Virus record (IMG/VR): IMGVR_UViG_3300045996_000494
Span: 1-63,414 of that record
Reading direction: 5' to 3' (one strand)
Length of the DNA stretch: 63,414 bases
From: a virus
Positions 722 through 52,820 of the stretch are shown in pieces; the first letter of the stretch is position 1, and every line of letters begins with the position of its first letter. The position numbers and the translations under genes are program-made. The notes under the pieces are model-generated. The model did no database searches, had not been told where the DNA came from, and worked only from the letters and a program-made list of their open reading frames with translations.

Positions 722-1138
722 GTGACGCAAAACACCTCACCCCAGGTGAACTTCGAGAAGATGATCGGTGCTTATATCACGCTGCGGGACTGGCTCGACG
801 CCAAGAAGAAAGCGTACGAGGAAGAGATCGAGCCACGCAAGCAGCAGCTCGAAGCGCTGAACGAGTTGTTGTTGAAGAAGCTCAACGTCACTGGTCAAAA
901 CACTGCGCGTACCGAAGCCGGCACTGCCTATAAGAAGGTCTGGCACTCGGCTACCGTCGCCGACAAGGATGCCTTCATGCGTCACGTGATCGGCACGCAG
1001 GACTGGGACTTGATCGACTGGCGGGCGAACAAGACCGCCGTCGTGGACTGCGTGAAGGAAAACCAAGAACCCCCGCCGGGCATCAACTACTCGTCGGGCT
1101 ATGATGTGGGCGTGCGTCGCCCCGGAAAGGACGACTGA
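722..1138 (+). CDS. Hypothetical replication-region protein (138 aa), GTG start
   Basis: A GTG start follows AGGAGGTAAAC. The N-terminal half is a charged amphipathic helix, probably coiled coil (residues about 20-60, rich in K, E and L). The C-terminal part contains WDLIDWRANKTAVVD and ends in a basic/acidic tail. Proteins of this layout are common next to phage ssDNA-binding and primase genes, but I cannot assign a function. The stop overlaps the next ATG by TGATG at 1138. Confidence 0.8.
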   Translation: MTQNTSPQVNFEKMIGAYITLRDWLDAKKKAYEEEIEPRKQQLEALNELLLKKLNVTGQNTARTEAGTAYKKVWHSATVADKDAFMRHVIGTQDWDLIDWRANKTAVVDCVKENQEPPPGINYSSGYDVGVRRPGKDD

Positions 1139-6576: not shown

Positions 6577-6811
6577 GCTTCCACCCTCCACAGTGAGCTA
6601 CTTCGTGGGCCACCGTATCCTCGCGCTCGTACTCCCGCGCGACGATCACTAGGCACTTTCGTCCAGTCCTATACGCGCAGCCTCGGGTCAGTACTCCGCG
6701 AATGTCGGCTTGGCAGATCACCTGCACCTGCGCGGACGGCAAGCGCTTCACGGTAGTCTGCCCGCGCCAGCGCTGAACGTACTCAGCCGGAGGCGGTCCC
6801 CAATCCATCAT
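6569..6811 (-). CDS. Small zinc metallopeptidase-like protein (80 aa)
   Basis: The C-terminus is HEVAHCGGWKHD, which fits HExxHxxGxxH with histidines at 69, 73 and 79 and the catalytic glutamate at 70. Small phage proteins ending in such a motif are widespread in alphaproteobacterial phages, but their substrate is unknown. There is no signal peptide. The ATG overlaps the end of the glycosyltransferase-like gene. Confidence 0.7.
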   Translation of the reverse strand: MMDWGPPPAEYVQRWRGQTTVKRLPSAQVQVICQADIRGVLTRGCAYRTGRKCLVIVAREYEREDTVAHEVAHCGGWKHD

Positions 6812-7272
6812 CCTTGCTCAACCCACCCGTCGTTCCTTTGGTGGCGCGTTGAAAGGTGTGTGACTGCCGGCCGGTGGGGGTGTGGCTCCAGCCCCTTCGC
6901 TCGCGCAGCGAACCATAGTCGTTGATCGAGCGTGTTCCAATGCGCTGGCTGGCTCCAGATGCAGGGCGTAGCGTCCATCAGGTCGGGCGTGATCTTAGTG
7001 CAGCCGAAGCCGTGGTAGATGCCTATCCCCCCATGGAGCTTGTAGGAGTAGGCGCCCCACGCGCAAGAGCACGCGAACAGCTCCTCGATAGCGCCCGGCC
7101 ACGGGATGATGTCGTGCTCGACGATGACGAACGGCTCGCCCTCTTGCCACAGCCGGTGCATGAGCTGGCGGTAGGCGTCGTCCCCGACGAGATGCACGTA
7201 CTCGGGGTCGTATGGCTCGGTGACCTGTAGCGTGACAGGGTGCAGCTCAACGTATGGGACGACGACCTTCAT
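6808..7272 (-). CDS. Glycosyltransferase-like protein (154 aa)
   Basis: The protein resembles a compact GT-A fold. An early nucleotide-sugar part leads to VEHDIIPWPGAIEEL (about residues 50-64), where the EHD acts like a DxD metal site. A later stretch YHGFGCTKITPDLM resembles an acceptor-site loop, and a histidine-rich tail follows. Phage enzymes of this type may modify DNA or cell-surface glycans. It lies among accessory genes at the end of the late operon, which does not distinguish the two. Confidence 0.6.
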   Translation of the reverse strand: MKVVVPYVELHPVTLQVTEPYDPEYVHLVGDDAYRQLMHRLWQEGEPFVIVEHDIIPWPGAIEELFACSCAWGAYSYKLHGGIGIYHGFGCTKITPDLMDATPCIWSQPAHWNTLDQRLWFAARAKGLEPHPHRPAVTHLSTRHQRNDGWVEQG

Positions 7273-7286
7273 GTTACCCCACGAGG

Positions 7287-7430
7287 TTACTTTTTCTTTT
7301 TGCCCTTGCGCTTGTCGGCCTCGTGGAACTCCTTCGCCACCGACCGGTCCATGCCGACCTTCTTGGCGAAGGATGGAGAGTTAGCCGCGGCGGCCATGAA
7401 CTTCTTCTGCTTCTTAGACTTGCTTGGCAT
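7287..7430 (-). CDS. Small basic phage protein (47 aa)
   Basis: MPSKSKKQKKFMAAAANSPS opens a lysine-rich protein ending KRKGKKKK. I recognise this as a conserved small phage protein type (PSKSxKQxKFMAAAANxPxFAKKxG), though its role is not established. Its basic charge suggests nucleic acid binding. Its start overlaps the upstream Acb2-like gene by 17 bp. Confidence 0.8.
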   Translation of the reverse strand: MPSKSKKQKKFMAAAANSPSFAKKVGMDRSVAKEFHEADKRKGKKKK

Positions 7431-7635
7431 TGGGGCCTCCGGTGGCGGCCTTCACCGCCCACATCGCGCCTTCCTCAAACGCCGTCTGCGCCAGGGCAGC
7501 TAGACGAGGATCGTTGCCCTTGAGCTTTTCGCACATGTCGATCAGCTCTGCAGCCTTCTGCTTCAGCTGGTCAACGTCGCTGTTGGCTGATGGATTGAAC
7601 GACACTCGCACTCTCTGTTCGCCTAAAGTTGCCAT
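7414..7635 (-). CDS. acb2: Acb2/Tad1-type hairpin protein, candidate anti-CBASS cyclic-nucleotide sponge (73 aa)
   Basis: Residues about 10-65 show the layout of the Acb2/Tad1 hairpin family: FNPSANSDVDQLKQKAAELI, then LAALAQTAFEEGAMWAVKAAT, two helices with the conserved E-x-A-x-M-W-x-V-K-A end. Known Acb2 proteins form hexamers that sequester cyclic di- and trinucleotides made by CBASS and related defences. The length fits. The residues that contact the ligand cannot be judged without an alignment. It lies in an accessory cluster after the ejection protein, so expression would be late unless there is a local promoter. Confidence 0.72.
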   Translation of the reverse strand: MATLGEQRVRVSFNPSANSDVDQLKQKAAELIDMCEKLKGNDPRLAALAQTAFEEGAMWAVKAATGGPNAKQV

Positions 7636-32050: not shown

Positions 32051-33984
32051 TGGAATGAACCTTCTAGCTCGTCTGCGTTCTGGACGCTACCACGAAGCTC
32101 GCCGCCCACCTCCGCCGAGCCCTCCAGGCTGCGGCCAAAGACCGTGCTACCCCGTAGGGTAATCTCGCGGCCACCGAAGATCGCCAGCGCCGGGGTGTGG
32201 AACGGAGACACATCGCTGCCGAAGATCGGCACGGCGTCTGCAACGGTCGTGAGCGTGTAGTGGATCGGCGACCGGGTAAAGACCGGCGTGACGGTCGCGC
32301 CAGTGATCGGGACCGTACCGGCGGTGATCGTGACGGTGCCACTCTGCGACCAAACCGGCGTGACGGTCGCGCCAGTGATCGGGACCACACCGGCAGTGAT
32401 GGGCGGCTCGTACCGCCCGTAGACCATCGTGACAGGCTGGCCGACAATCTCGACCCACCCGGCGATCCACGCTGCAGTGACACCCACTGAGCCTGTGACA
32501 GTCTGCCCAGCAATGGCGACCGTGCCAGCCGTGACGCTGATCGTGTAATTGACGCCACCTCCCGACCACACCGGCATGATGCTGGCGCCGGTGATCGGGA
32601 AAATGTCGGCGTCGACGACAATGCCATAGCCGAAAACCGGGCTGACTGTCTGGCCAACGATGTCGACCGTCCCGGCGGTGATCGTGACCACTCGACCAAA
32701 GACCGGAGTGACTGTCTGCCCGACAATGGCCACGGTCCCGGCAGTGATCGTAACCGTATAGCCGGTGCCCTCGATGGGCGTGACGGTCTGACCGGTGATC
32801 GCGACCGCACCCGCAGTGACGCTAATCGAGCGCCCGTAAGCGGGAGTGACGGTCTGGCCAACGATGGCAACTGTGCCCGCCGTGATCGAGACCGCTCGGG
32901 CGAACACCGGCGTGACCGTCTGCCCGACGATGGCGACCGTGCCAGCGGTGATCGCAACAGCACGTCCGTAGGCGACCGCGACCGTCTGCCCGGCGATGGC
33001 GACCGTGCCAGCCGTGATGCTGGCAGTCCAGCCGCGCGCAGGCGTAACTGTCTGCCCGATGATGTCCACGGTCCCAGCGGTGACCGTGATGCTGTAACCG
33101 CCGCTCTTAACCGGGTTGACCGTCTGCCCGACGATGTCGACCGTGCCAGCGGTGATGCTGATCGTGCGGCCAAAGACGGAGGTGATGGTCTGCCCAGTGA
33201 TCGCGACGGTGCCAGCAGTGATCGCCACCGCGCGCCCGTAAGCTGGCGTGACGGTCTGACCGGTGATCGCGACCGCACCCGCAGTGACGCTAATCGAGCG
33301 CCCGTAGGCAGGCGTCACCGTCTGCCCGGTAATCGCAACCGTGCCAGCTGTGATCGCGACAGCCCGCCCGAACACCGGCGTGACGGTCTGGCCGACGATG
33401 TCGACCGTCCCAGCGGTGATCGAGATCGTATAGGAACTGCCCGAGCCATAGACCGGCGTGACGGTCTGCCCGACGATGTCAACGGTCCCGGCAGTGATGC
33501 TGATCGAGCGCCCGTAAGCGGGCGTGACCGTCTGCCCGACGATGTCAACGGTGCCTGCGGTGATCGCGACCGCACGGCCGTAGGCGGGTGTAACAGTAGC
33601 GCCGGTGATCGCGACCGTACCGGCAGTGATTGTCGGCTCGATGCGCCCGTAGCTCGGAGTGACGGTCTGACCAACAATCCCAACGGTGCCGGCAGTGATC
33701 GCGACGGCGCGCCCGTACGCTGGCGTGACCGTCTGCCCGGTGATCGCAACCGTAGCAGGAGTGATAGCCGGCTCGACGCGCCCGTAGTTCGGAGTGACCG
33801 TCTGCCCGGTGATCGCAACGGTGCCGGCAGTGATCGTAATGTCGTAGCCGACTACCGTGTCCTCTTGGACGAGATAGCCAGAGCCGTCCTCAAGGAGGAT
33901 GCCGAAGCCGTCCTCCTGCAGGATTTTCCCGCCTGCAACCGTTCCTACGAGCGAGATGATCGGGACGCGGACGCGCAAAGCCAT
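32047..33984 (-). CDS. Repeat-rich tail or surface protein (645 aa)
   Basis: After a 48-residue N-terminus (ILQEDGFGILLEDGSGYLVQ), the protein is about 23 tandem copies of a 22-residue unit, typically ITAGTVAIVGQTVTPAYGR plus two or three residues. Each unit predicts two short strands and a Tyr-Gly-Arg turn, which would stack as a rod. The C-terminal 50 residues differ (FGGREITLRGSTVFGRSLEG). It lies among fibre-like genes, so a long fibre or capsid decoration rod is likely. Confidence 0.75.
   Translation of the reverse strand: MALRVRVPIISLVGTVAGGKILQEDGFGILLEDGSGYLVQEDTVVGYDITITAGTVAITGQTVTPNYGRVEPAITPATVAITGQTVTPAYGRAVAITAGTVGIVGQTVTPSYGRIEPTITAGTVAITGATVTPAYGRAVAITAGTVDIVGQTVTPAYGRSISITAGTVDIVGQTVTPVYGSGSSYTISITAGTVDIVGQTVTPVFGRAVAITAGTVAITGQTVTPAYGRSISVTAGAVAITGQTVTPAYGRAVAITAGTVAITGQTITSVFGRTISITAGTVDIVGQTVNPVKSGGYSITVTAGTVDIIGQTVTPARGWTASITAGTVAIAGQTVAVAYGRAVAITAGTVAIVGQTVTPVFARAVSITAGTVAIVGQTVTPAYGRSISVTAGAVAITGQTVTPIEGTGYTVTITAGTVAIVGQTVTPVFGRVVTITAGTVDIVGQTVSPVFGYGIVVDADIFPITGASIMPVWSGGGVNYTISVTAGTVAIAGQTVTGSVGVTAAWIAGWVEIVGQPVTMVYGRYEPPITAGVVPITGATVTPVWSQSGTVTITAGTVPITGATVTPVFTRSPIHYTLTTVADAVPIFGSDVSPFHTPALAIFGGREITLRGSTVFGRSLEGSAEVGGELRGSVQNADELEGSFQ
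32230..33840. repeat. 66-bp tandem repeats within the fibre gene
   Basis: About 23 imperfect direct copies, period usually 66 bp (22 codons). Neighbouring copies share blocks such as CGTGACGGTCTG and CGCCCGTA. Length variants of 69-81 bp occur where extra residues are inserted. Such arrays expand and contract by recombination or slippage. Confidence 0.85.
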
Positions 33985-37677: not shown

Positions 37678-38010
37678 TTACGGCACCACGCCGGTGGGGA
37701 GACTGTCCAGAATGGTAGTCCCCATGAGGTTGGTTGCTTTGTTGCGGAAGCGGACCCGCTTGCCCTGGTCCGCGGCGGCGAGCGCGTAGGTCGCGCCAGT
37801 CTGACCACTGATCTCGTCGTTGTTGCGCACCCACGCGCGTGTAGTGGTCACGGTGCCCGAGCCGGTGAAGGTGGCGTTGGTGCCGGTCTGCGTCTGGCCC
37901 ACAGTCACGGTGCCGGTGCGCGTCGGCAGCGCGGAGGCGCGCGGCTTGAAGCGCCCATCGGCCATCAGCCCCTGGTACTCCAGCATGTGGCGCTGCGAAC
38001 GACCCATCAC
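37678..38010 (-). CDS. Small Ig-like head or tail protein (110 aa)
   Basis: After a short basic start (GRSQRHMLEYQGLMADGRFK), the sequence TVTVGQTQTGTNATFTGSG and QTGATYALAAADQGKRVRFR forms an Ig-like beta domain as found in phage surface proteins. Start overlaps the portal stop (ATGA at 38007). Confidence 0.65.
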   Translation of the reverse strand: MMGRSQRHMLEYQGLMADGRFKPRASALPTRTGTVTVGQTQTGTNATFTGSGTVTTTRAWVRNNDEISGQTGATYALAAADQGKRVRFRNKATNLMGTTILDSLPTGVVP

Positions 38011-40070
38011 AATCCTCCTGTCATGGCGCGAGATGCGTTACCTTCTGGAACGCCCAAGTCCATGTTTTGTGGCCCGGCCACATCTCCTGTCGGTGGCGGC
38101 AGCATACCCGGAGCCGCCACGGGTGGCAAATCTTCTTCTGGGGGCACGATGTCGTCGTCGATGCCGACCGTGCTGGAGACCGAGCGGAGCAGCTTGGCGC
38201 GACCCTGCGGCCCCATGATCTGAAGGTCGAACGGGTTGGCTGTGGCGGTCAGAAGCTCGATCTGCCGGACCCGCGCCGTCTCGCGCTGAACAGCCACCTC
38301 AACGCCACGCACGCGAATAGTCTCATCACCCCGGAACGTCCCGCTCTGATCGGTGAGCATGATCATGTCGTAAAGCCCTTCGAGCAAGGGCTTGATCACG
38401 TCGTGGTCGATGTTCTGTGCAACCATCTGTAGGATTTTGGAGGCGTTGCCCATGAGCATCGCCAGCCCCGACGCAGTGCGGCCGGCCCCGCCGCCGGGGT
38501 TCGAGCCGCTCATGTAGCGCGGGATCGCCGAGAGATCGTCGGCAAGCCCCTGGAAGAAGCTGTAGACGCCGACCAGCTCCTGCGCGTGCGAGGGCGGGCT
38601 GAAGAAGTCCACCGGCTTGATCGAGCCGGTCTGCGGCACCATCGGGTCCGACTTAGTGCGCCAGCGCTTCCACGGGTACATGTCGTCCCCGCTTTCCAGA
38701 ATAGACAGCCGCTCCTCGTCGATGACCACCTGCGGCCCCGAGGCTATCGACAGGTTGTTCACCAGCGCACGGAGCGTAGCGTTGCAGACATCCTGAATGT
38801 CGGACAAGATGTCTGGGAGTGCGTTCCCAATAGGTGTCCCTGGAACTTTCTCGAAACTAGTGATATAGTAAGGATGACGCTTGCGAGGGTTGGGGGAAAT
38901 CTGTGCCTTGATTATGTACCGGCCAACCAACCACGCCTGAACGAAGTAATCACGCAGGGGGTCTGGAATTTCCTCTGCCGAGAAGCCATAATCGAGTAGG
39001 AGGCGCCCTTGGACGTTGCCATGAAATTCGGCGCAATCGATCATCCCCGACCGATTGAAATGAGGGTTCTCCCTGGACTCACCCTCCGCCCGTTCGCTGT
39101 CAGTGGAGTCCATCCAGTCCCCAGAGAGACCCCCACGTCCATAGTCGTCGAGCACTTTCTCGATGTTTGCCTTGTTGTATCCTGGGAGGTCCATGACATC
39201 GTTGAGGTCCGCACGGGTCAACCGCTGGCGCTCAATGACCGCCGCATCCTTGATATGCGACGCGCCGGGTGACCAGTAAATGTCGAACGGGCTCTTGCGC
39301 TCCCAGAACATCTTCGGCCGCTGTTGGGTGATCGGCTTGCCTTCCTGCCACACCACGTCCGGCACGACGCGGACGACCGGCCCCTTGATGCAGGCGAAGG
39401 GGAACAGGGGGATGTCGGTGATGAACTCGGTCAACGCCGAGTAGAAGCCCCCCTCGGACAGCCTATCGTCGAGCTTAGACTCCGCGACCTTGGCTTCCTT
39501 CGCAGCCTTTTTCTTAGCCGCCTTGCGCGCCGCAGAAATCAGCGAATTTGTGCGATCTCGCAGTGCGTTGATGTCGAGCTGCTGCCCTGCAGCGATCTGC
39601 GCCTGAGCCTCCATAGCGACCAGCGCCTGCACGTCCTGCATGATGTCGTCCGGCAGCACGGGCTCGGGCGACGGCTCCAGCCCCCATGGCTTGTCGGTCG
39701 TCAGATACACCTCGCGCAGGAGCGCGCTGGCGCCGCGGCATTTGAGGGCGATCACCCGCGCGTACACCTCCGACCCGCCGAACTGCTTGATCGACATGAG
39801 CTGGTCGGGATCGTACTTGCCGTTGAATACGCGCTGTGCGTGGATGAGGCGCTCGTTCCAGCCGGATGCGCTGTTGCGATGGTTGCGCATCACCTCCCAC
39901 TCGGTGCGAATGTGGCGAGCAAGCTCGTCCATCCGCGTGTCTTGATCGTCCGGCAGCGAAGCAGCCACAGTGGCGCGCTCGTGCTCCAGTAACCCCTGCG
40001 GGGTAACTACGCGCAGCAGCGGCGGGCCGGAGGGTGCCGTGGGCGGGGAAAGTGGGAGCGCAGTCGCCAT
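38007..40070 (-). CDS. Portal protein (687 aa)
   Basis: The size and sequence fit podoviral portals: EWEVMRNHRNSASGWNERLI in the N-terminal wing, QRLTRADLNDVMDLPGYNKA mid-protein, and KRHPYYITSFEKVPGTPIGN followed by long helices (LRALVNNLSIASGPQVVIDE). It is the first gene of the leftward late arm and diverges from the terminase operon. Confidence 0.87.
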   Translation of the reverse strand: MATALPLSPPTAPSGPPLLRVVTPQGLLEHERATVAASLPDDQDTRMDELARHIRTEWEVMRNHRNSASGWNERLIHAQRVFNGKYDPDQLMSIKQFGGSEVYARVIALKCRGASALLREVYLTTDKPWGLEPSPEPVLPDDIMQDVQALVAMEAQAQIAAGQQLDINALRDRTNSLISAARKAAKKKAAKEAKVAESKLDDRLSEGGFYSALTEFITDIPLFPFACIKGPVVRVVPDVVWQEGKPITQQRPKMFWERKSPFDIYWSPGASHIKDAAVIERQRLTRADLNDVMDLPGYNKANIEKVLDDYGRGGLSGDWMDSTDSERAEGESRENPHFNRSGMIDCAEFHGNVQGRLLLDYGFSAEEIPDPLRDYFVQAWLVGRYIIKAQISPNPRKRHPYYITSFEKVPGTPIGNALPDILSDIQDVCNATLRALVNNLSIASGPQVVIDEERLSILESGDDMYPWKRWRTKSDPMVPQTGSIKPVDFFSPPSHAQELVGVYSFFQGLADDLSAIPRYMSGSNPGGGAGRTASGLAMLMGNASKILQMVAQNIDHDVIKPLLEGLYDMIMLTDQSGTFRGDETIRVRGVEVAVQRETARVRQIELLTATANPFDLQIMGPQGRAKLLRSVSSTVGIDDDIVPPEEDLPPVAAPGMLPPPTGDVAGPQNMDLGVPEGNASRAMTGGL
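39990..40006. repeat. Dispersed palindromic element near the portal 5' end
   Basis: TAACCCCTGCGGGGTAA is a 17-bp perfect palindrome with central base, encoding VTPQG. It is the closest copy to the portal/terminase divergence point. Confidence 0.75.
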
Positions 40071-40131: not shown

Positions 40132-40614
40132 ATGACAAATGTCGCCATCCCGGTTTCGGACATAGACCGCAAGATGCGGCTCGTCGCCAGAGAGCTGGCG
40201 GTTGACATCATGGAGCCGCAGACAATCGTTGAAAAGTTTGATCTGAGCATCGCTGAGTGGGACACGATTATTCAGCACCCTCAGTTCAAGGAAATGCTGA
40301 TTGAGGAGAAGGAGCGCTGGAACAGCTCCCTGAACACCCGCGAGCGAGTAGAATACAAGACATGGCAAATCCTTGAGGACGCCCTGCTCAAGTTCCAAGA
40401 GTACCTGCATTCCCCAGCCTTCAGCGACACTGCCAAGGTGCAGCTGCTCCAGGCCCTGCAGAAGCAGGTGGGCATTGGCCAGCGTGATGCTAACCCCGGC
40501 GCTGCAATGGGCGAGCGCTTCCAGATCACGATCAACATGGGGGGCGAAGTCAAAGTTGAACAAGATATTACCCCGCAAGGTAAGCTGATCGAGGGAGAGG
40601 TGGTGAACCCATGA
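40132..40614 (+). CDS. terS: Terminase small subunit-like protein (160 aa)
   Basis: Directly upstream of the large subunit, with an ATGA overlap. The N-terminus has a DNA-binding helical region (MRLVARELAVDIMEPQTIVE, KFDLSIAEWDTIIQHPQFKE, like phage TerS helix-turn-helix parts) followed by oligomerisation helices. The C-terminus is acidic. It would recognise the packaging site. A motif-only call; the sequence is divergent. Confidence 0.72.
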   Translation: MTNVAIPVSDIDRKMRLVARELAVDIMEPQTIVEKFDLSIAEWDTIIQHPQFKEMLIEEKERWNSSLNTRERVEYKTWQILEDALLKFQEYLHSPAFSDTAKVQLLQALQKQVGIGQRDANPGAAMGERFQITINMGGEVKVEQDITPQGKLIEGEVVNP

Positions 40615-42098
40615 GCGTACTGTCAGGCCCACTGACCAAAATCAGGTTCGACGCTCCCCCCACCGTCGGCGCGTTCATGCGCAGCCAGTCCTTCTTCCGG
40701 CTGATCGCCGGCCCGGTGGGCTCCGGCAAGACTACGGGCTGCATCTTCGAACTGCTGCGGCGTGCCATGGAGCAGGCGCCGGCGGCGGACGGGCTGCGCT
40801 ACACCCGCTTCGCCATCGTGCGCCAGACGCTGAAGCAGCTCAAGGACACGGTGCTCAAGGACATCGAGCAGTGGCTCAAGGGGCTGGTGGCGTACAAGGT
40901 CTCCGACAACACGGTGTACGTCCACTTTGGCGACGTGCGCTCCGAGTGGCTCCTGATCCCGCTCGATGACCCCGAGGACCAGCGCCGGCTCCTCTCGATG
41001 CAGCTGACGGGCGCGTGGCTCTCCGAGGCCATCGAGATGGACACCGACATCATCCCCCCGGTGCTCGGGCGCTGCGGCCGCTACCCCGGCATGGGCATGA
41101 AGCCGGACGCGCACGAAGGTCAGTGGCCAACGTGGTACGGCGCCATCGCCGACACCAACATGCCGTCCGAAGGTTCGAGCTGGCACAACCTCATGGAGGT
41201 GGAGACCCCTCCCGACTGGCAAATTTTTGTTCAGCCGGGCGGCATGGAGCCGAACGCGGAGAACATCGCCAACCTGCCCGGCGGACGCATCTACTACGAA
41301 CGCGCGTCACGCGGCCATTCGCCGGAATGGATTACCCGGTATGTTCACGCCCAATATGGACCGGACCCATCCGGCTCGGCGGTGTTTAGGAGCACCTTCA
41401 ACAGAAAGTTTCACACCGTTGCGCTGACAGATGAGGCGCGCGGTCGAGGCGATCAGTTTGCACTCAGCCCAACTCACGGCCTTCCCCTTATCGTCCTCCA
41501 AGACTTCGGACGTAACCCCTGCTCCCTGATTTGCCAGATAGACCATAAGGGCCGTGGCTTGGTCCTTCAGGAACTCGTAGCCGAAGATGTTGGACTGCAG
41601 CTGCACGTGCAGCAAGCGCTCGTCCCCGCGTTGAAAAATGACCGCTTCATTCGCCACAGCGTATATGTAGTGGGTGACCCAAGCGGACGGCAGAAGAATA
41701 CTTCCTACGAGGAGACTTCCTTCGATGTATTGAAGAACGCCGGTCTCCAAGCATTCCCAGCCCCAACGAATGCCATTGACCGTCGGATCAAAGCCGTAGA
41801 AAACATGCTCCTCCAGCAGCGCGACGGCGGTGCAGCACTGCTTATCGATGCGGATCAATGCCAAAAACTGGTAATGGCCCTCGCCGGTAAGTACCGGTTT
41901 GCTAAGCGAAAGAACGGACAACTTGCTAGCCTCCCAGAAAAGCTACACCCATGGAGCGATCTCGCAGACGATCTGCAGTACTTCTGTCTGGTTATCCAGG
42001 GGGGACTTCAGGAGTACATTGCAAACCGGATGAGTAATCAGATACGGGTGGCGCAGCTCGGTCCGCGGCAGCGTATTTCGCCACGTGCATGGACTTGA
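40611..42098 (+). CDS. terL: Terminase large subunit (495 aa)
   Basis: N-terminal ATPase: Walker A AGPVGSGKTT (about residues 33-42), candidate Walker B region GAWLSEAIEMD (about 137). C-terminal RNase H-type nuclease: LIVLQDFGRNPCSL supplies the first Asp, YVVGDPSGRQK the second, and ALLIDADQCQK the last acidic residue. It packages DNA into the prohead through the portal. The size is normal. The last 107 bp are overlapped by a convergent small gene. Confidence 0.92.
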   Translation: MSVLSGPLTKIRFDAPPTVGAFMRSQSFFRLIAGPVGSGKTTGCIFELLRRAMEQAPAADGLRYTRFAIVRQTLKQLKDTVLKDIEQWLKGLVAYKVSDNTVYVHFGDVRSEWLLIPLDDPEDQRRLLSMQLTGAWLSEAIEMDTDIIPPVLGRCGRYPGMGMKPDAHEGQWPTWYGAIADTNMPSEGSSWHNLMEVETPPDWQIFVQPGGMEPNAENIANLPGGRIYYERASRGHSPEWITRYVHAQYGPDPSGSAVFRSTFNRKFHTVALTDEARGRGDQFALSPTHGLPLIVLQDFGRNPCSLICQIDHKGRGLVLQELVAEDVGLQLHVQQALVPALKNDRFIRHSVYVVGDPSGRQKNTSYEETSFDVLKNAGLQAFPAPTNAIDRRIKAVENMLLQQRDGGAALLIDADQCQKLVMALAGKYRFAKRKNGQLASLPEKLHPWSDLADDLQYFCLVIQGGLQEYIANRMSNQIRVAQLGPRQRISPRAWT

Positions 42099-42189
42099 CC
42101 CCATCCAGCACGTACTGCTCGCAGGACATGGCTATGTAGGCTATGTATGCCTGCAGCATACGCATGCCGGCTTCGTCCCACTGGGTCAC
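41992..42189 (-). CDS. Small hypothetical protein, GTG start (65 aa), convergent with terL
   Basis: The GTG overlaps the upstream stop (GTGA), which fixes the start. Helical aromatic sequence TQWDEAGMRMLQAYIAYIAM with one cysteine, then a basic/Pro tail in the region overlapping terL. Last gene of the minus-strand small-gene set. Unknown function. Confidence 0.5.
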   Translation of the reverse strand: MTQWDEAGMRMLQAYIAYIAMSCEQYVLDGVKSMHVAKYAAADRAAPPVSDYSSGLQCTPEVPPG

Positions 42190-42347
42190 CGGTAGCCCCA
42201 CGTCGGCCCCCACGAGTCAGTAAGAGGACGCTTGTAGCCATTAGCCTGCATTAGCTGAAAGAGGATCGCGACCATAGCCAGCTCAGCCATCTCTGTTTCG
42301 TAACCAGCCAGCCGCCATGCGTCGGGGACGTAGCGGTTCAGGGTCAT
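42186..42347 (-). CDS. Small hypothetical protein (53 aa)
   Basis: ATGA overlap with the upstream gene and GTGA with the downstream one. TLNRYVPDAWRLAGYETEMA is followed by a helical Met/Ala-rich section (ELAMVAILFQLMQANGYK) and ends SWGPTWGYR. Tryptophan- and tyrosine-rich like its neighbours. Confidence 0.6.
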   Translation of the reverse strand: MTLNRYVPDAWRLAGYETEMAELAMVAILFQLMQANGYKRPLTDSWGPTWGYR

Positions 42348-42469
42348 CTGGAGCGTGCGTTCGTTAGGGCAGTCAACTGCCTTCTCATCGCGTACCAGGC
42401 AAAAGTGAACTGTAACCACTTAGCCCTAGCGTACAGCCTATCGTTGCGATACAGCTCGTAGTCCAGCAC
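42344..42469 (-). CDS. Small hypothetical protein, GTG start (41 aa)
   Basis: GTG preceded by a palindromic element copy giving CAAGGTTAACC as Shine-Dalgarno. The sequence LDYELYRNDRLYARAKWLQF continues to a basic end. Stop overlaps the next ATG (ATGA). Confidence 0.55.
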   Translation of the reverse strand: MLDYELYRNDRLYARAKWLQFTFAWYAMRRQLTALTNARSR

Positions 42470-42491
42470 GGTTAACCTTGCGGGGTAAGGC

Positions 42492-42530
42492 GGGGGAGAG
42501 CTACGCGGAGGGCGATCCATGCTCTCCCCC
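42492..42530. repeat. Inverted repeat with 10-bp perfect arms
   Basis: GGGGGAGAGC and GCTCTCCCCC are separated by 19 bp. There is no T-run on either side. The repeat lies in the 220-bp gap before the 41-aa gene and could be a processing or attenuation structure. Nothing else is evident in 42470-42690. Confidence 0.6.
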
Positions 42531-42690
42531 TACCCCGCGCCACCGGGGCAGTGTGGTGGCACAGGGGGTCTTGTTACAGGCGGGCCGGTCTCCATCCTTC
42601 CGGGTAGGAGTGCCCCAGGCGAGGCTCATTCCGTAGTCCGAGCCAAGCGATAGCCCCTGGGTGCCGGCAAACACAGCCCGCCTGTAGCTC

Positions 42691-43383
42691 TTACTTCTTG
42701 TAGTTCTTCGTCCGCGGGCGACCCTGCTTCTTGGCCGCTGCACGGTCGTTGCGGGCAAGGTGCTCGCCGACGGTCTCGTCTTTATGGCCCCGCGGCACGG
42801 GCTCGGCGACGCGCACCGGCTGCCCCTCGGCGTCTGCCGCGCCGCGGCGGATTTCTTGGTTGGCAGTGCCTGAGCGCTCCGCACCGCCGGAGACCTTGCG
42901 CTTGCGCGGGCTCTCCAGGGGGGCGTTCTCTGCCGCCTCGAAGTCTGCCTGACGCTCACTACCAGCAGCCATCTCCTCCTCGGTCTCGGGGGTGACGAAC
43001 CCCTCCTGGCCGACAGTGAGCTGCAGCGGGTCATCCTTGGCGAGGCGCTTTTTCTCCAGCTCCGCCCGCACCTGCTCGGTCAGCGGCAGGAAGCGGAAGG
43101 CGGCGGTGGCGCTGCGCTTCTCTTTCTTCACGGTCTCCCCACCGTCGATGGGGAACTCTTCGAGGATCACCTCCTCCTGCTCCAACGACTGGCGCGGCTC
43201 GTAAATCTGCACGAGGTACGGCCGGTTGTTGGGCGCCGTGATGATCATGCGGAAATCCGGGTCCGGCGCGGCGTTCTCGCCGGCAGGAGAGACACGAGCC
43301 GGGGCGACGCCCGCGGCGATCTTAGTCACCCGGCTTTGCGGGTTCTGTGACGAGGGCAGGGTCTGTGGTTCGATCCGCATCAT
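42691..43383 (-). CDS. Charged, probably disordered protein (230 aa)
   Basis: The N-terminal half contains a folded-looking stretch (FRMIITAPNNRPYLVQIYEP, then EEVILEEFPIDGGETVKKEK). The C-terminal half is Glu/Lys/Arg-rich with low complexity (ENAPLESPRKRKVSGGAERS). No catalytic residues. It is the largest product of the minus-strand small-gene set. Confidence 0.7.
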   Translation of the reverse strand: MMRIEPQTLPSSQNPQSRVTKIAAGVAPARVSPAGENAAPDPDFRMIITAPNNRPYLVQIYEPRQSLEQEEVILEEFPIDGGETVKKEKRSATAAFRFLPLTEQVRAELEKKRLAKDDPLQLTVGQEGFVTPETEEEMAAGSERQADFEAAENAPLESPRKRKVSGGAERSGTANQEIRRGAADAEGQPVRVAEPVPRGHKDETVGEHLARNDRAAAKKQGRPRTKNYKK

Positions 43384-43421
43384 AGTCTCCTAGGCGGCAG
43401 GGGAGCCGTTGCCGCGGCACT

Positions 43422-43598
43422 CTACGTGGTTTCACGAGCTTTGTCATCGCGCGCTTTTTTCTGCGCCTTGACAGCCTGCGCGTAGGTCGAGAACCAGCCG
43501 ATGCGCTCCCCGGTCTTGCGATCCTCCACAGAGAAGCCGTTACCGGGATCACAGATCGCAAAGCGGGCAGTGGAGGTGTTGCGGTATAAAGTGCTCAT
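43422..43598 (-). CDS. Small hypothetical protein (58 aa)
   Basis: Start overlaps the HTH gene stop (TGATG). TLYRNTSTARFAICDPGNGF, then KTGERIGWFSTYAQAVKA and a Lys/Arg tail ending DDKARETT. The last 7 codons are nearly identical in DNA to the end of the upstream HTH gene (23-bp repeat). Confidence 0.65.
   Translation of the reverse strand: MSTLYRNTSTARFAICDPGNGFSVEDRKTGERIGWFSTYAQAVKAQKKARDDKARETT
43424..43446. repeat. 23-bp direct repeat, copy 1
   Basis: ACGTGGTTTCACGAGCTTTG plus TCA matches 43600-43622 at 22 of 23 positions. Both copies encode the C-terminal DKARETT of neighbouring genes. Confidence 0.8.
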
Positions 43599-43879
43599 CA
43601 CGTGGTTTCCCGAGCTTTGTCAGCATAGTCGGCGCGGACCAGTCCGTCGTCGATCCATGACAAAACGTCGAGCTTGCGATAGTAGGTCTTTCGCCCAAGG
43701 TAGACGAACACGGGACCGGTGCCGGTCTGCCTCCACCCATTGAGGGTGTACTCGCTGATCTCCAGCATGGACGCCAACTCGCCGGGGGTCATCAGCCCCA
43801 GCTCGCGCCGGAGCTTCTCGCCCTGCGACGGGCTGCGTGATGTAGATGTTGTAGGGGTCTTTGACGGGGATCGGGACAT
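43598..43879 (-). CDS. Helix-turn-helix (MerR/excisionase-like) DNA-binding protein (93 aa)
   Basis: After a Ser/Thr-rich N-terminus, LMTPGELASMLEISEYTLNG and WRQTGTGPVFVYLGRKTYYR fit the HTH_17/AlpA type used by excisionases and small transcription regulators: recognition helix followed by a wing with the GP..YLG..VRY-like strand. It may regulate this operon or early genes. The start ATG is at 43879 in a region overlapped by the upstream frame. Confidence 0.72.
   Translation of the reverse strand: MSRSPSKTPTTSTSRSPSQGEKLRRELGLMTPGELASMLEISEYTLNGWRQTGTGPVFVYLGRKTYYRKLDVLSWIDDGLVRADYADKARETT
43600..43622. repeat. 23-bp direct repeat, copy 2
   Basis: ACGTGGTTTCCCGAGCTTTG plus TCA, at the 3' end of the HTH gene. 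The single difference from copy 1 is silent in the encoded Arg. Confidence 0.8.
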
Positions 43880-44012
43880 AGCAGGTTGTCTCCATAACGT
43901 AGGCAACAGCCAAAGCCTGGGTCAGCAGCTCCGCGGCCCAAACATCAGTTTGCAGCAGCCAGACCTGAAAGAGGTTGAACCTTATGTCGGCACGCTCGTG
44001 CTGATCGCTCAT
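43620..44012 (-). CDS. Small helical protein with long out-of-frame overlap (130 aa open frame)
   Basis: The ATG overlaps the upstream stop (AATGA). Residues 1-70 look real (ADIRFNLFQVWLLQTDVWAA, TQALAVAYVMETTCYVPI). Beyond residue about 80 the frame is out of phase with the HTH gene and very Arg-rich, as shadow frames are. Either an unusually long overlap or an indel that extended this gene; the natural product may end around residue 75. Confidence 0.5.
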   Translation of the reverse strand: MSDQHERADIRFNLFQVWLLQTDVWAAELLTQALAVAYVMETTCYVPIPVKDPYNIYITQPVAGREAPARAGADDPRRVGVHAGDQRVHPQWVEADRHRSRVRLPWAKDLLSQARRFVMDRRRTGPRRLC

Positions 44013-44173
44013 TTCCGCAGCCCTCGTGCGAACTCCCATGTTCGCTCTTTGCCGGCCAGCTCTTCCCACTGCAGACTGGCCATGTTGTTGACCCACTCTG
44101 CAACGCGGCGCTGCCAGTCGTTCCACCAATAGTCGGCACGAAGCCAGGAGTCGGGGTTGGTCTGTGTCGGCAT
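44009..44173 (-). CDS. Small tryptophan-rich protein (54 aa)
   Basis: Preceded by CTGAGGTAAAGTG. LRADYWWNDWQRRVAEWVNN and LQWEELAGKERTWEFARGLR form one or two amphipathic helices with seven Trp. ATGA overlap with the next gene. Confidence 0.6.
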   Translation of the reverse strand: MPTQTNPDSWLRADYWWNDWQRRVAEWVNNMASLQWEELAGKERTWEFARGLRK

Positions 44174-44198
44174 CACTTTACCTCAGATGGCCTGCGCT

Positions 44199-44441
44199 TC
44201 ACGCAGACCCTTGCGGATTTACCTCTCGGGGTAATTGGTACTGCTGACCGGGGGATGGCTTCAGAGATTTCCAATACATGAAGGCTATAAAAGACATATC
44301 GGTCAGCACGGCGGCATGGTTAAGTAGGTGGTACATTTCCCAGTCCATCAAATGGTCGGCAAACTCTGCTGTCTGATCCTGCCAGTGGACGGCACTGACA
44401 GCGTCGAGATCAAATGTGTACCATTCAAGCAAGTAGACCAT
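44199..44441 (-). CDS. Small helical protein (80 aa)
   Basis: TAATG overlap with the upstream gene sets the start. YLLEWYTFDLDAVSAVHWQD and LLNHAAVLTDMSFIAFMYWK are aromatic helices that share the style of neighbours (His/Trp/Tyr-rich, acidic). The C-terminus contains PREVNPQG from a palindromic element copy at about 44217. Confidence 0.65.
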   Translation of the reverse strand: MVYLLEWYTFDLDAVSAVHWQDQTAEFADHLMDWEMYHLLNHAAVLTDMSFIAFMYWKSLKPSPGQQYQLPREVNPQGSA

Positions 44442-44560
44442 TAGTCGTCCCAGAACCAACGCTCGGAGTGATCGAGCTGGATCATGCAATTGAACATAGC
44501 TATATCGGCAGCCCCCCAGTTGAAAAAGGGAAGATAATCTTCAAGAGTGAGGTGGTTCAT
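44441..44560 (-). CDS. Small acidic aromatic protein (39 aa)
   Basis: ATGA overlap upstream, TAATG downstream. NHLTLEDYLPFFNWGAADIA continues to SERWFWDD. Unknown function. Confidence 0.6.
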   Translation of the reverse strand: MNHLTLEDYLPFFNWGAADIAMFNCMIQLDHSERWFWDD

Positions 44561-44664
44561 TTCCACAATTTCTCCTGCTCTTGCCATATAGCATAATGGG
44601 CAAGCTGCCACATGCGACGCTGCAGCAAATTGTAATAGTAGCGGGAGAAGCGGGCGCGGTTCAT
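44557..44664 (-). CDS. Small basic aromatic protein (35 aa)
   Basis: ATGA overlaps on both sides. NRARFSRYYYNLLQRRMWQL then HYAIWQEQEKLWK. One amphipathic helix; opposite in charge to the acidic products next to it. Confidence 0.6.
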   Translation of the reverse strand: MNRARFSRYYYNLLQRRMWQLAHYAIWQEQEKLWK

Positions 44665-44789
44665 AGCCACCCTCGCCACACAGCGACGACATGTGCTGCG
44701 TCCATCCCAAGCCCCGCCATTGCGCTGTCGAGCGCCACCTCCGCCACGTACCAGCATATATGGTCAAGCTGCGCAGAGTGGTAGATCAT
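44661..44789 (-). CDS. Small helical protein (42 aa)
   Basis: ATGA overlaps on both sides. IYHSAQLDHICWYVAEVALD then AAHVVAVWRGWL. Unknown function. Confidence 0.6.
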   Translation of the reverse strand: MIYHSAQLDHICWYVAEVALDSAMAGLGMDAAHVVAVWRGWL

Positions 44790-44887
44790 CGGTATGACAA
44801 CACGATATTCAGCTGTTCGTAGAGGGCATAGTCGGCAGTGGAGAGCTTCATCGCCTCCAGAATGGCGAGGTTGTGGTTGAAGGTCAT
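44786..44887 (-). CDS. Small helical protein (33 aa)
   Basis: ATGA overlaps on both sides. FNHNLAILEAMKLSTADYAL then YEQLNIVLSYR. Unknown function. Confidence 0.6.
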   Translation of the reverse strand: MTFNHNLAILEAMKLSTADYALYEQLNIVLSYR

Positions 44888-44991
44888 TCGACTAACCGGT
44901 TCAGCTCGGCAAGAGTGCTACTCTGAGCAATCAGCCAGCAGATCGCCCGCAGCTCGATCAGGGTGGCAGTGGGGGGAGTGGGTACGGGCAT
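44884..44991 (-). CDS. First gene of the minus-strand small-gene set (35 aa)
   Basis: PVPTPPTATLIELRAICWLI then AQSSTLAELNRLVE, ending in ATGA overlap. Its ATG lies 7 bases past a consensus-like -10 box with no room for a Shine-Dalgarno, so the mRNA would be leaderless. Confidence 0.55.
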   Translation of the reverse strand: MPVPTPPTATLIELRAICWLIAQSSTLAELNRLVE

Positions 44992-44997
44992 GGGGGG

Positions 44998-45026
44998 TAT
45001 TTAGTGGCTCTCGATGGGGTTGTCAA
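44998..45026 (-). promoter_or_regulatory. Sigma-70-like promoter of the minus-strand small-gene set
   Basis: On the minus strand TTGACA (45021-45026) is followed by a 17-bp spacer and TAAATA (44998-45003). AT-rich tracts lie upstream. The predicted start falls on the ATG at 44991. Confidence 0.65.
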
Positions 45027-45189
45027 GTGTTGGGGGAGTTTTCAGTGGGATAGGGTGGATTTTGGGAAAATTTTACTTTTTTATTGGGTGTGGTCGGTTG
45101 ACGCAGTTGGTGCTCAAATCGTCGATTGGGTGGCCTAGTAGGAATGAGACCAGGGGGAGGGGGGACGAAAATTTTTTGTTACATTAGGG
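45004..45189. other. G-rich and AT-rich divergent intergenic segment
   Basis: No gene seen. On the plus strand it is G/T-biased with A/T tracts (AAAATTTT, TTTTTT), consistent with promoter upstream DNA for both arms. A plus-strand promoter could not be defined. Confidence 0.4.
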
Positions 45190-45955
45190 TTTGGTAGGCT
45201 GGGTATTTTCAAGACACCCTAAAAGATGCCCGGCCCCCCACCCCGGCGCCTGTCCAGATACCCCCACGGGGGTCCCGACCCTTAATTCCTGCCGCCTATG
45301 GGGAGAGACCGAACCGCAAGTGCCTAGTGCCCCGGTTCAGCCCGAGCTTACTTTACGACGCCCCTTGGCGGGGCGTGCGGCCGGGTGCTACACAGGAAGC
45401 CAAGCGTGACGCGCAACCCACAGGGGCGCGTCGCCCGCAAGGCTATGCGGTACCGAGCCCCACAAGTTGCCTGAGACATGGCGGCGGGTCTCCCCGAAAC
45501 GAAACTCACACCCGTTGATATTGGCAAGGCATCACAGCAGACTACCTAACCGACCCTCGCGTTGGTGCTCGTAACCTCAAAGGCGCATCGCCCCGTATGT
45601 TGCGGCATCTCCAAAGGCTCTCGGCAGGACGTTGAGCGACCATGTGCTCGGAAACACATGGCCCATGACAGGAGCGAGGCACTAGCAACGCCTCCCCACG
45701 CAGCCTACTCGGCGGCGAGTTTAGGACTAGGCGTGAAAATGTCTCTCTTGCCGCGCCTTGCGCTGCATGCTTGGAACGCTGCCTCGCACTGTCCAGGGCT
45801 TGATTGCTTCAGACAGTGCGATGCGTTTCGGGCGGTGCGGTGCCCGACCAAGCGCGGCCCTGTTAGTTTCCCGACCGGGACATGGCGCAAGCTGTGTCCC
45901 GGTTGCTTTGCGTTGGCGTCACGGTCCTGCGGGACTGTGACACGCAACGCAACCG
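45190..45955 (+). ncRNA. Candidate large structured non-coding RNA
   Basis: No open frame here shows coding character. The segment carries many perfect hairpins: 45260-45273 (ACCCCC/GGGGGT), 45358-45376 (ACGCCCC/GGGGCGT), 45640-45661 (CCATGTG/CACATGG), 45786-45819 (GCACTGTC/GACAGTGC), 45874-45903 (ACCGGGACA/TGTCCCGGT) and 45908-45952 (TTGCGTTG plus GTCAC pairing across two internal bulges). The last two stack just before the 169-aa gene. It may be an independent RNA or a long structured leader. Orientation is taken from the downstream gene. Confidence 0.45.
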
Positions 45956-51203: not shown

Positions 51204-51472
51204 TGTCCCTGCGGGAGAAGCTGCTCGGGATGCGCGAGCGCATCTGGATGGCTGACGGCAGGCTTAGGCGCCACGGCATCCTCGCAGAGATCGCGCGTGA
51301 GCTGGGTGTCAGCCGCCAGTGCGTCGGCACCGCCGCTCGCCGCGCCATCCACGGCCGCGAGCCCCGCAACCAGTACTATGAACGGGTGCGGCGCGTGTAT
51401 GGTCCGCAGAAAGACTGGCCGCTTGACGTGCTGGAGTACTATCGCCGGCACTACAAGAAGAGGAAGCCATGA
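51203..51472 (+). CDS. Helix-turn-helix early regulator (89 aa)
   Basis: HGILAEIARELGVSRQCVGT followed by AARRAIHGREPRN is a clear HTH with recognition helix. The rest is basic and ends KKRKP. It may regulate phage or host early promoters. ATGA overlap downstream. Confidence 0.7.
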   Translation: MSLREKLLGMRERIWMADGRLRRHGILAEIARELGVSRQCVGTAARRAIHGREPRNQYYERVRRVYGPQKDWPLDVLEYYRRHYKKRKP

Positions 51473-51552
51473 CCCTAAACCTACTCCAGTGGCACATAGC
51501 CTACCACGCCACCGATGATCAGCTCACCCGTTTAATGGTGTACTGGCCATGA
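51469..51552 (+). CDS. Micro-protein (27 aa)
   Basis: ATGA overlaps on both sides. TLNLLQWHIAYHATDDQLTR then LMVYWP. Unknown. Confidence 0.5.
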   Translation: MTLNLLQWHIAYHATDDQLTRLMVYWP

Positions 51553-51656
51553 ACTACGACCCGGTGCCCGCATGGTTCCAGTGGAAAGCAGCAGAGTATG
51601 CACTCCGAGCAGCACTGCGGAAGTTGGTGCACGCAAGACTAAAGGTTGAGCCATGA
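51549..51656 (+). CDS. Small basic protein (35 aa)
   Basis: ATGA overlaps on both sides. NYDPVPAWFQWKAAEYALRA then ALRKLVHARLKVEP. A basic amphipathic helix. Confidence 0.55.
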   Translation: MNYDPVPAWFQWKAAEYALRAALRKLVHARLKVEP

Positions 51657-52581: not shown

Positions 52582-52610
52582 TTGACACTAGGTTAGTCTT
52601 ACATTATATT
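52582..52610 (+). promoter_or_regulatory. Strong sigma-70-like promoter for the second early block
   Basis: TTGACA, 17-bp spacer, TATATT (5 of 6). Predicted start about 52617, with GGAGGAGGG before the ATG at 52629. It would drive the MoxR/VWA and replication genes. Confidence 0.8.
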
Positions 52611-52628
52611 ATGTGGGAGGAGGGTCAC

Positions 52629-52820
52629 ATGGACTACCGTGAGCGCCTGCACGACGAACAGCTTGAGCTTCAGGCGCAGCGCATCACCCGCGATGTTCTT
52701 GCGACACTCCGCGAGAACGGTGACAACCTCGACATTCTCGCCGCCGTGCGGCGGGCCTTGCTCGACCATAACCCCGGAAAGGTAACTCATGGACACCGAG
52801 AAGATACTGATCAAGCGTGA
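52629..52820 (+). CDS. Small helical protein (63 aa)
   Basis: First gene after the promoter. DYRERLHDEQLELQAQRITR then DVLATLRENGDNLDILAAVR. Helical; function unknown. Last ten codons overlap the next gene. Confidence 0.65.
   Translation: MDYRERLHDEQLELQAQRITRDVLATLRENGDNLDILAAVRRALLDHNPGKVTHGHREDTDQA

Follow-up and report, generated by a model that had tools for sequence, protein, structure and literature searches.

A string of very small genes joined stop to start has been found on the minus strand of a phage genome, the IMG/VR virus record IMGVR_UViG_3300045996_000494, whose entire 63,414 bases were analysed and are called the window here. The frames lie between the terminase gene and a noncoding stretch that starts near position 45000. 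Two related contigs carry arrays of the same kind; the number of frames varies between the three, one gene family occurs in tandem copies, a promoter-like site common to all three precedes the first gene, and most of the frames are under protein-level selection. The reading put forward here, to which we give about an even chance, is that the operon is an early accessory slot holding a self-extending array of coupled microgenes with probably host-directed products.

The array begins with a gene of 35 amino acids (aa; 44884..44991, minus strand, as are all genes of the operon) and continues through ATGA junctions into genes of 33 aa (44786..44887), 42 aa (44661..44789), 35 aa (44557..44664) and 39 aa (44441..44560), and through a TAATG junction into a gene of 80 aa (44199..44441). 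Below, these genes are named by their first position. The six form a strict stop-start chain (44991-44199). The next gene encodes 54 aa (44009..44173) and belongs to the family found in tandem copies in a relative. An ATGA in its stop opens a frame of 130 aa (43620..44012), whose N-terminal part is akin to the 54-aa family and which overlaps the helix-turn-helix (HTH) gene. The distances at the seven junctions between 44991 and 44012 are -4, -4, -4, -4, -1, +25 and -4. The HTH gene, predicted to encode an excisionase-like HTH_17 regulator of about 93 aa (43598..43879), is joined by TGATG to a 58-aa gene (43422..43598), and a 230-aa gene of unassigned function follows (42691..43383). Downstream lie a small frame (42344..42469) of 41 aa if read from the GTG at 42469 or 58 aa from the ATG at 42520, a 53-aa gene entered by an ATGA (42186..42347), and a 65-aa frame entered by a GTGA, with a GTG start and unproven coding status (41992..42189). 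The final 107 bp of the last frame (41992-42098) are antisense to the 3' end of the gene for the terminase large subunit (TerL; 40611-42098, plus strand), to which the operon stands tail to tail. All frames that the first-pass annotation had named are present. Its seven coupled frames with one spacer do overlap, the single spacer being the 25 nucleotides (nt) between the 80-aa and 54-aa frames, but it overlooked the 130-aa frame and the TGATG that ties the HTH gene to the 58-aa gene; its three further coupled frames likewise exist, but the first reaches its listed 41 aa only from a GTG and the last also starts with one.

The region is also present on two IMG/VR contigs, L002 (TerL 97% identical) and L003 (TerL 91% identical). 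Ahead of the HTH gene, L003 has 5 frames, the window 8 and L002 14. The junctions of L002 are, in order, -4 six times, +1, -1, -1 and -4 four times, the last of the 13 leading into a 209-aa frame; those of L003 are +38, -4 three times and a further -4 into the HTH frame. Thus, stops overlap or abut the next start (-4 or -1) at 6 of 7 junctions in the window, 12 of 13 in L002 and 4 of 5 in L003. Over the three arrays this amounts to 22/25 junctions versus 28/101 among the upstream genes of other relatives, a comparison that is biased upward, as the array starts were chosen by hand and the others by script. Wherever the frames of the window and L002 match, they are collinear. Manual reading of the comparisons gave 4394, 4498, 4947, 5855, 5977 and 6108 as the additional frames of L002. 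Gene 44991 is orthologous to the third frame of L002 (4608), so that the first genes of the phages are non-orthologous; 44887 has a counterpart at the matching place (4733, 33% aa identity), 44789 is 82% identical to 4834, 44560 corresponds to 5166, and the 80-aa gene 44441 has homologues in both contigs (L002 5285, L003 7199). Among the larger and downstream genes, the L002 version of the 58-aa gene is 84% identical and that of the 53-aa gene (42347) 69%, and the 230-aa protein is 89% identical in L002 and 76% in L003, with a weak homologue in L016 (22.3 bits). Between the HTH gene and the 58-aa gene, L002 contains about 840 bp with further frames (6759-7572) that are absent from the window and that mark a second insertion point in the operon.

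It had been proposed that such a strictly coupled set encodes the subunits of one heteromeric complex made in fixed ratio. Coupled pairs often encode subunits of heteromeric complexes, to go by the title of Huber 2023 as cited in PMC12548453, and aromatic-rich helices could pack together. The relatives speak against this proposal. The set grows from 5 to 8 to 14 frames, members have been inserted or duplicated, and in L003 the member of the 54-aa family precedes that of the 80-aa family, the reverse of the order in the window. As the size of the set varies from 5 to 14 in close relatives, a fixed-ratio complex is regarded as unlikely. The coupled array itself withstood the comparison: both L002 and L003 carry one, and loss of the overlaps and frames in close relatives, which would have counted against it, was not seen.

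How the set could grow is best illustrated by the 54-aa family. It comprises four tandem copies in L002 (5536, 5697, 5855 and 5977), L003 6769 and window gene 44173; the first part of frame 44012 joins it through similarity to L002 5697 (z 11.3). At their 3' ends, L002 5855 and 5977 are identical at 81 of 84 nt, counted on the alignment and including the ATGA that starts the next gene. At least this duplication in L002 brought its ATGA junction along. A unit running from one ATGA to the next is 3k-1 long, and by arithmetic a tandem copy therefore is immediately a new frame that is coupled on both sides. Cassettes of this kind may be duplicated or inserted as a whole and leave the coupling unbroken, because each brings its own stop-start junction. 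This cassette-like growth is the better-evidenced part of our reading, compared with the host-directed role of the products.

Short frames that overlap by a few nucleotides can also arise by chance. Dinucleotide shuffling of the whole window (40 trials, both strands) produced strict chains of at least six genes eight times, so that the presence of some chain within 63 kb is weak evidence. When the 793-nt stretch itself was shuffled 3000 times, the longest strict chain had four members versus the six observed, and the chain of L002, which is 13 long if its one +1 gap is allowed, compares with a maximum of six in 1000 shuffles. At 82 other loci of the TerL clade, no strict chain of at least six was found; the four chains of five seen there are not above shuffles.

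Protein-level selection was assessed from DNA-only alignments with L002, in which the observed substitutions were redistributed and the protein similarity was scored for each frame. These tests did not include gene 44664, whose L002 counterpart is doubtful. The six upstream genes pooled gave z 7.7 in the predicted frame (0 of 2000 redistributions) and z 1.3 and 0.0 in the other two, and the three downstream frames pooled gave z 3.7 versus 0.0 and 2.0. Individually, z was 2.2 for 44991, 0.5 for 44887, 3.7 for 44789, 2.2 for 44560, 4.5 for 44441 and 4.1 for 44173, and, downstream, 3.4 for the frame at 42469, 3.4 for the 53-aa gene and -0.1 for 42189. The protein-guided alignment contained no stop codon where 6.0 were expected (6 of 4000 permutations). 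In the DNA-only alignment one L002 codon inside 44441 reads as a stop, which is attributed to an out-of-frame gap, as the L002 frame itself is open. The ratio of nonsynonymous to synonymous substitution rates (dN/dS) is 0.16 for 44789 and 0.35 for 44560; pooled over seven pairs, including the doubtful one of 44664, it is 0.54 versus 0.16 for the 58-aa gene and 0.21 for the 230-aa gene. Over ten pairs, the doubtful one among them, the first, second and third codon positions show 133, 125 and 159 differences, which alone is not significant (P 0.10). These comparisons indicate protein-level selection on most frames. A chance origin would fit the whole-window shuffles and the two frames without selection, 44887 and 42189; the local shuffles, the 13-long chain of L002 and the frame-specific conservation refute it for most frames, these two excepted, and as an account of the array it has an almost negligible probability. 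The chain, the local shuffles and the frame-specific selection thus bear out the earlier view that this is a coupled operon of genuine small genes.

The same data bear on a second alternative, in which the peptides hardly matter and the array is a coupled leader cascade that sets the ribosome supply to the HTH, 58-aa and 230-aa genes. Strict coupling and a chain that runs up to the HTH gene would suit such a cascade, whose variable length would tune the output. However, the protein sequence is conserved and not just the openness of the frames, as seen in the pooled z and in gene 44789, and separate ribosome sites exist for the HTH gene of L002 (GGAGGT) and for the 230-aa gene (AGGAGA). We consider this explanation improbable.

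The position of the operon can be compared across the TerL relatives through its HTH gene. The encoded protein matches PF12728 with 31.7 bits (Pfam cut-off 27) and phrog_66; its other matches, to BldC/MAD1, are weak. At E values up to 0.01 the HTH profile was found at 57 of 85 TerL-relative loci, L002 and L003 included, a set that contains fragments and near-identical pairs. In the list of the best 45 matches, every one lies on the opposite strand from TerL; with L002 and L003 set aside, the remaining 55 HTH loci are at most 6 kb from the TerL end. Ten proteins, selected mostly by length from the 79 called upstream of the HTH gene, were scanned and proved to be eight tyrosine integrases, one DNA ligase and one SNase-like protein. 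No match to the integrase family PF00589 was found in the window, L002 or L003, the latter two being fragments; since the record has no such match, the protein was filed as an HTH_17 regulator and not as an excisionase. Given these integrases and other genes in the relatives, the operon lies in an accessory slot; an excisionase-type regulator is the probable ancestor of its HTH protein. The slot might also be a decaying one, in which the integrase beside the excisionase-like gene was lost and the frames are drifting remnants or moron debris. The eight integrases in relatives and their absence from the window, L002 and L003 would agree with decay; however, most frames are under frame-specific selection, the scanned frames match no integrase family above cut-off and the recent duplicates retain their junctions. 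Decay is unlikely, though somewhat less so than the fixed-ratio complex or the leader cascade.

Ahead of the first gene lies the promoter-like site TTGACAACCCCANCGANAGCCANTANATA (29 bp, 44998..45026, minus strand), with the first ATG 6 nt on. It is common to the window, L002 and L003, where it stands 6-7 nt before the first ATG although the first genes differ. The window contains a single copy of its first 16 bases; in IMG/VR, only the contigs of L002 and L003 match the site exactly, and genome contigs gave no match. Were transcription to begin 6-8 nt past the -10 element, the first base would coincide with the ATG or adjoin it, so a leaderless start of the array transcript is likely. Upstream of this site, a long noncoding stretch (45030-45880) is well conserved with L002 and contains an inverted GGGT...ACCC motif and an AT-rich patch, the latter with ATTCCTA-like repeats in L003; it is possibly an operator or an origin. 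A terminator-like hairpin of 15 pairs (45872-45905) lies near the start of a plus-strand 197-aa frame.

The small products are rich in aromatic residues, as the first-pass annotation had claimed: tryptophan and tyrosine make up 5.7% and 6.1% of 13 small products versus 1.6% and 2.8% of 11 long window proteins. The alternation of acidic and basic products that it also described is not seen, the net charges being, in order, -1, -1, -3, +5, -6, -7, 0 and -4, the final value calculated from residues 1-48 of frame 44012. AlphaFold models the 54-aa product as a single helix (residues 8-52; mean predicted local distance difference test score, pLDDT, 79.5) from only four sequences; the model of the 80-aa product (pLDDT 59.7) was not used further. 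Membrane peptides or holins were considered and rejected, as the highest 19-residue Kyte-Doolittle mean over 35 proteins is 1.59 and no hydrophobic segment is present. No slippery heptamer for frameshifting into a polyprotein was seen by eye at the printed junction contexts, to which no dedicated test was applied. Seven small products had no anti-CRISPR match in NCBIfam, nor had the set scanned with PADLOC; neither an anti-CRISPR nor an Aca model was hit in the library scans, the presence of Aca models in those libraries being unchecked. To our knowledge, anti-CRISPR proteins (Acrs) seldom share sequence.

Several known systems resemble parts of the array. Like acr-aca operons, it has short, variable genes of fast turnover, one promoter-like site and an HTH gene within the operon, and gene order, strand and the single site suggest the same layout, an operon in which small genes precede an HTH regulator. 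It differs from them in its HTH_17/excisionase-like regulator, its stricter gene joining and its one tandemly duplicated family. Pairs coupled by termination-reinitiation use the identical ATGA junction, which is known to couple the translation of neighbours. The known examples mostly involve two ordinary genes or a short series of them, whereas the array has five links in one run and in L002 12 of 13 junctions join frames of 26-83 aa. By profile the regulator belongs to the HTH_17 proteins (phrog_66), which in relatives lie beside an integrase; here it follows microgenes in a record in which no integrase was found. Finally, phage moron or accessory slots likewise adjoin a conserved gene and vary in content between relatives, but the cargo here is a coupled microgene array able to extend itself.

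From these comparisons the following course may be proposed. One promoter, probably with a leaderless transcript, would drive the microprotein string, and the ATGA and TAATG joints would let a terminating ribosome restart on the next frame. That translation proceeds by reinitiation is inferred from the junctions together with the reviewed knowledge of how neighbouring genes are coupled (PMC12548453). Once produced, the HTH regulator further down the operon probably acts as its repressor. The short, tryptophan- and tyrosine-rich, non-membrane products, helical where predicted, would most likely act by binding proteins of the host at an early stage of infection, either for takeover or against defence. 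The slot, the promoter-like site, the HTH gene, the fast divergence and the tiny products resemble acr-aca operons and other host-directed regions as described in PMC9410881, PMC9765179 and PMC7648647, which is why a host-directed role is taken as the most likely one, at about even odds. The earlier suggestion of a host-takeover or anti-defence cassette fits in location, promoter-like site, HTH gene and fast divergence, but homologues with an assigned function were found for none of the products. More tentatively, and as a possible rather than a probable scheme, the array may propagate itself: duplication of a unit would yield genes that are already coupled and would thereby multiply tiny host-directed proteins under one leaderless promoter in an integrase or cargo slot.

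A number of observations weigh against the self-extending, host-directed array. It is known from three records only: copies elsewhere were found neither in phage records nor in plasmids, searched with the 230-aa protein; an IMG/VR search for the array gave nothing beyond the L002 and L003 contigs; the 54-aa family had no match in 397 genomes (of the order of a Bradyrhizobium-derived handle), a search that had no positive control; and the 230-aa profile had one weak match among these genomes (E 5.8e-4, locus L099, with an internal stop). The L002 counterpart of gene 44664 is doubtful (26% identity), and frames 44887 and 42189 have no selection support of their own. Common descent of the tiny genes is unproven beyond the 54-aa family; the products of the window are more alike than shuffles (z 6.2), but only marginally so (z 2.0, 6 of 200) when fragments drawn at random from the other proteins of the window serve as the reference. 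The -10 element (TAAATA) matches poorly, a consensus promoter scan of the window did not report the site, and no operator for the HTH protein was identified. As a class the products show no amphipathic signal, mean z (-0.06 and -0.15) being not above shuffles. Scanned by subset per library, the tiny products had no match above cut-off in Pfam, PHROGs, NCBIfam or PADLOC; a PDB profile search with the 54-aa family gave a best E of 0.37, to ribosomal eL13, which was taken as chance; and a viral fold search with the 54-aa model found no match.

The wider window looks like the genome of a podovirus-type phage. Apart from TerL, it encodes a portal/connector protein (38007-40070, minus strand), an internal virion protein, a DNA polymerase and a 2151-aa protein with DarB-like matches. 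TerL relatives are found on two Bradyrhizobium contigs (57% identity) and in Rhizobium phages (52%), which makes a rhizobial host plausible. When the literature was searched for these Rhizobium phages, no paper that mentions RHph_TM3_14A came up. The window contains neither Rfam RNA families nor transfer RNA genes. A 645-aa gene contains a repeated stretch (GTTGACATCGTCGGGCAGAC; 33460-33550, minus strand) with copies 66 bp apart. In a small-gene region on the plus strand, two more coupled tiny tryptophan-rich frames (27 and 35 aa, ATGA junctions) lie at 51469-51656, and L003 has a frame of similar style at the matching place (about 836-1126, minus strand). Farther on, a good sigma-70-like site (TTGACA, then TATATT) stands immediately before an ATG (52582-52640, plus strand); a closely similar site occurs in L003 at about 251 on the minus strand.

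Each ingredient of the array is known by itself, but so long an array of so small genes, multiplying together with its junctions, was not encountered in the literature searched. These narrow word searches, which covered few subscription journals, found no described array of coupled small open reading frames and no microprotein operon in phages. Operons of this kind would be overlooked by gene-calling programs that apply a minimum length. The operon provides a set of uncharacterised small phage proteins for host-defence screens. If the products are expressed, it would clearly exemplify how duplication can create small genes that have their translation signal built in, and the relatives with 5, 8 and 14 frames would make this process directly testable.

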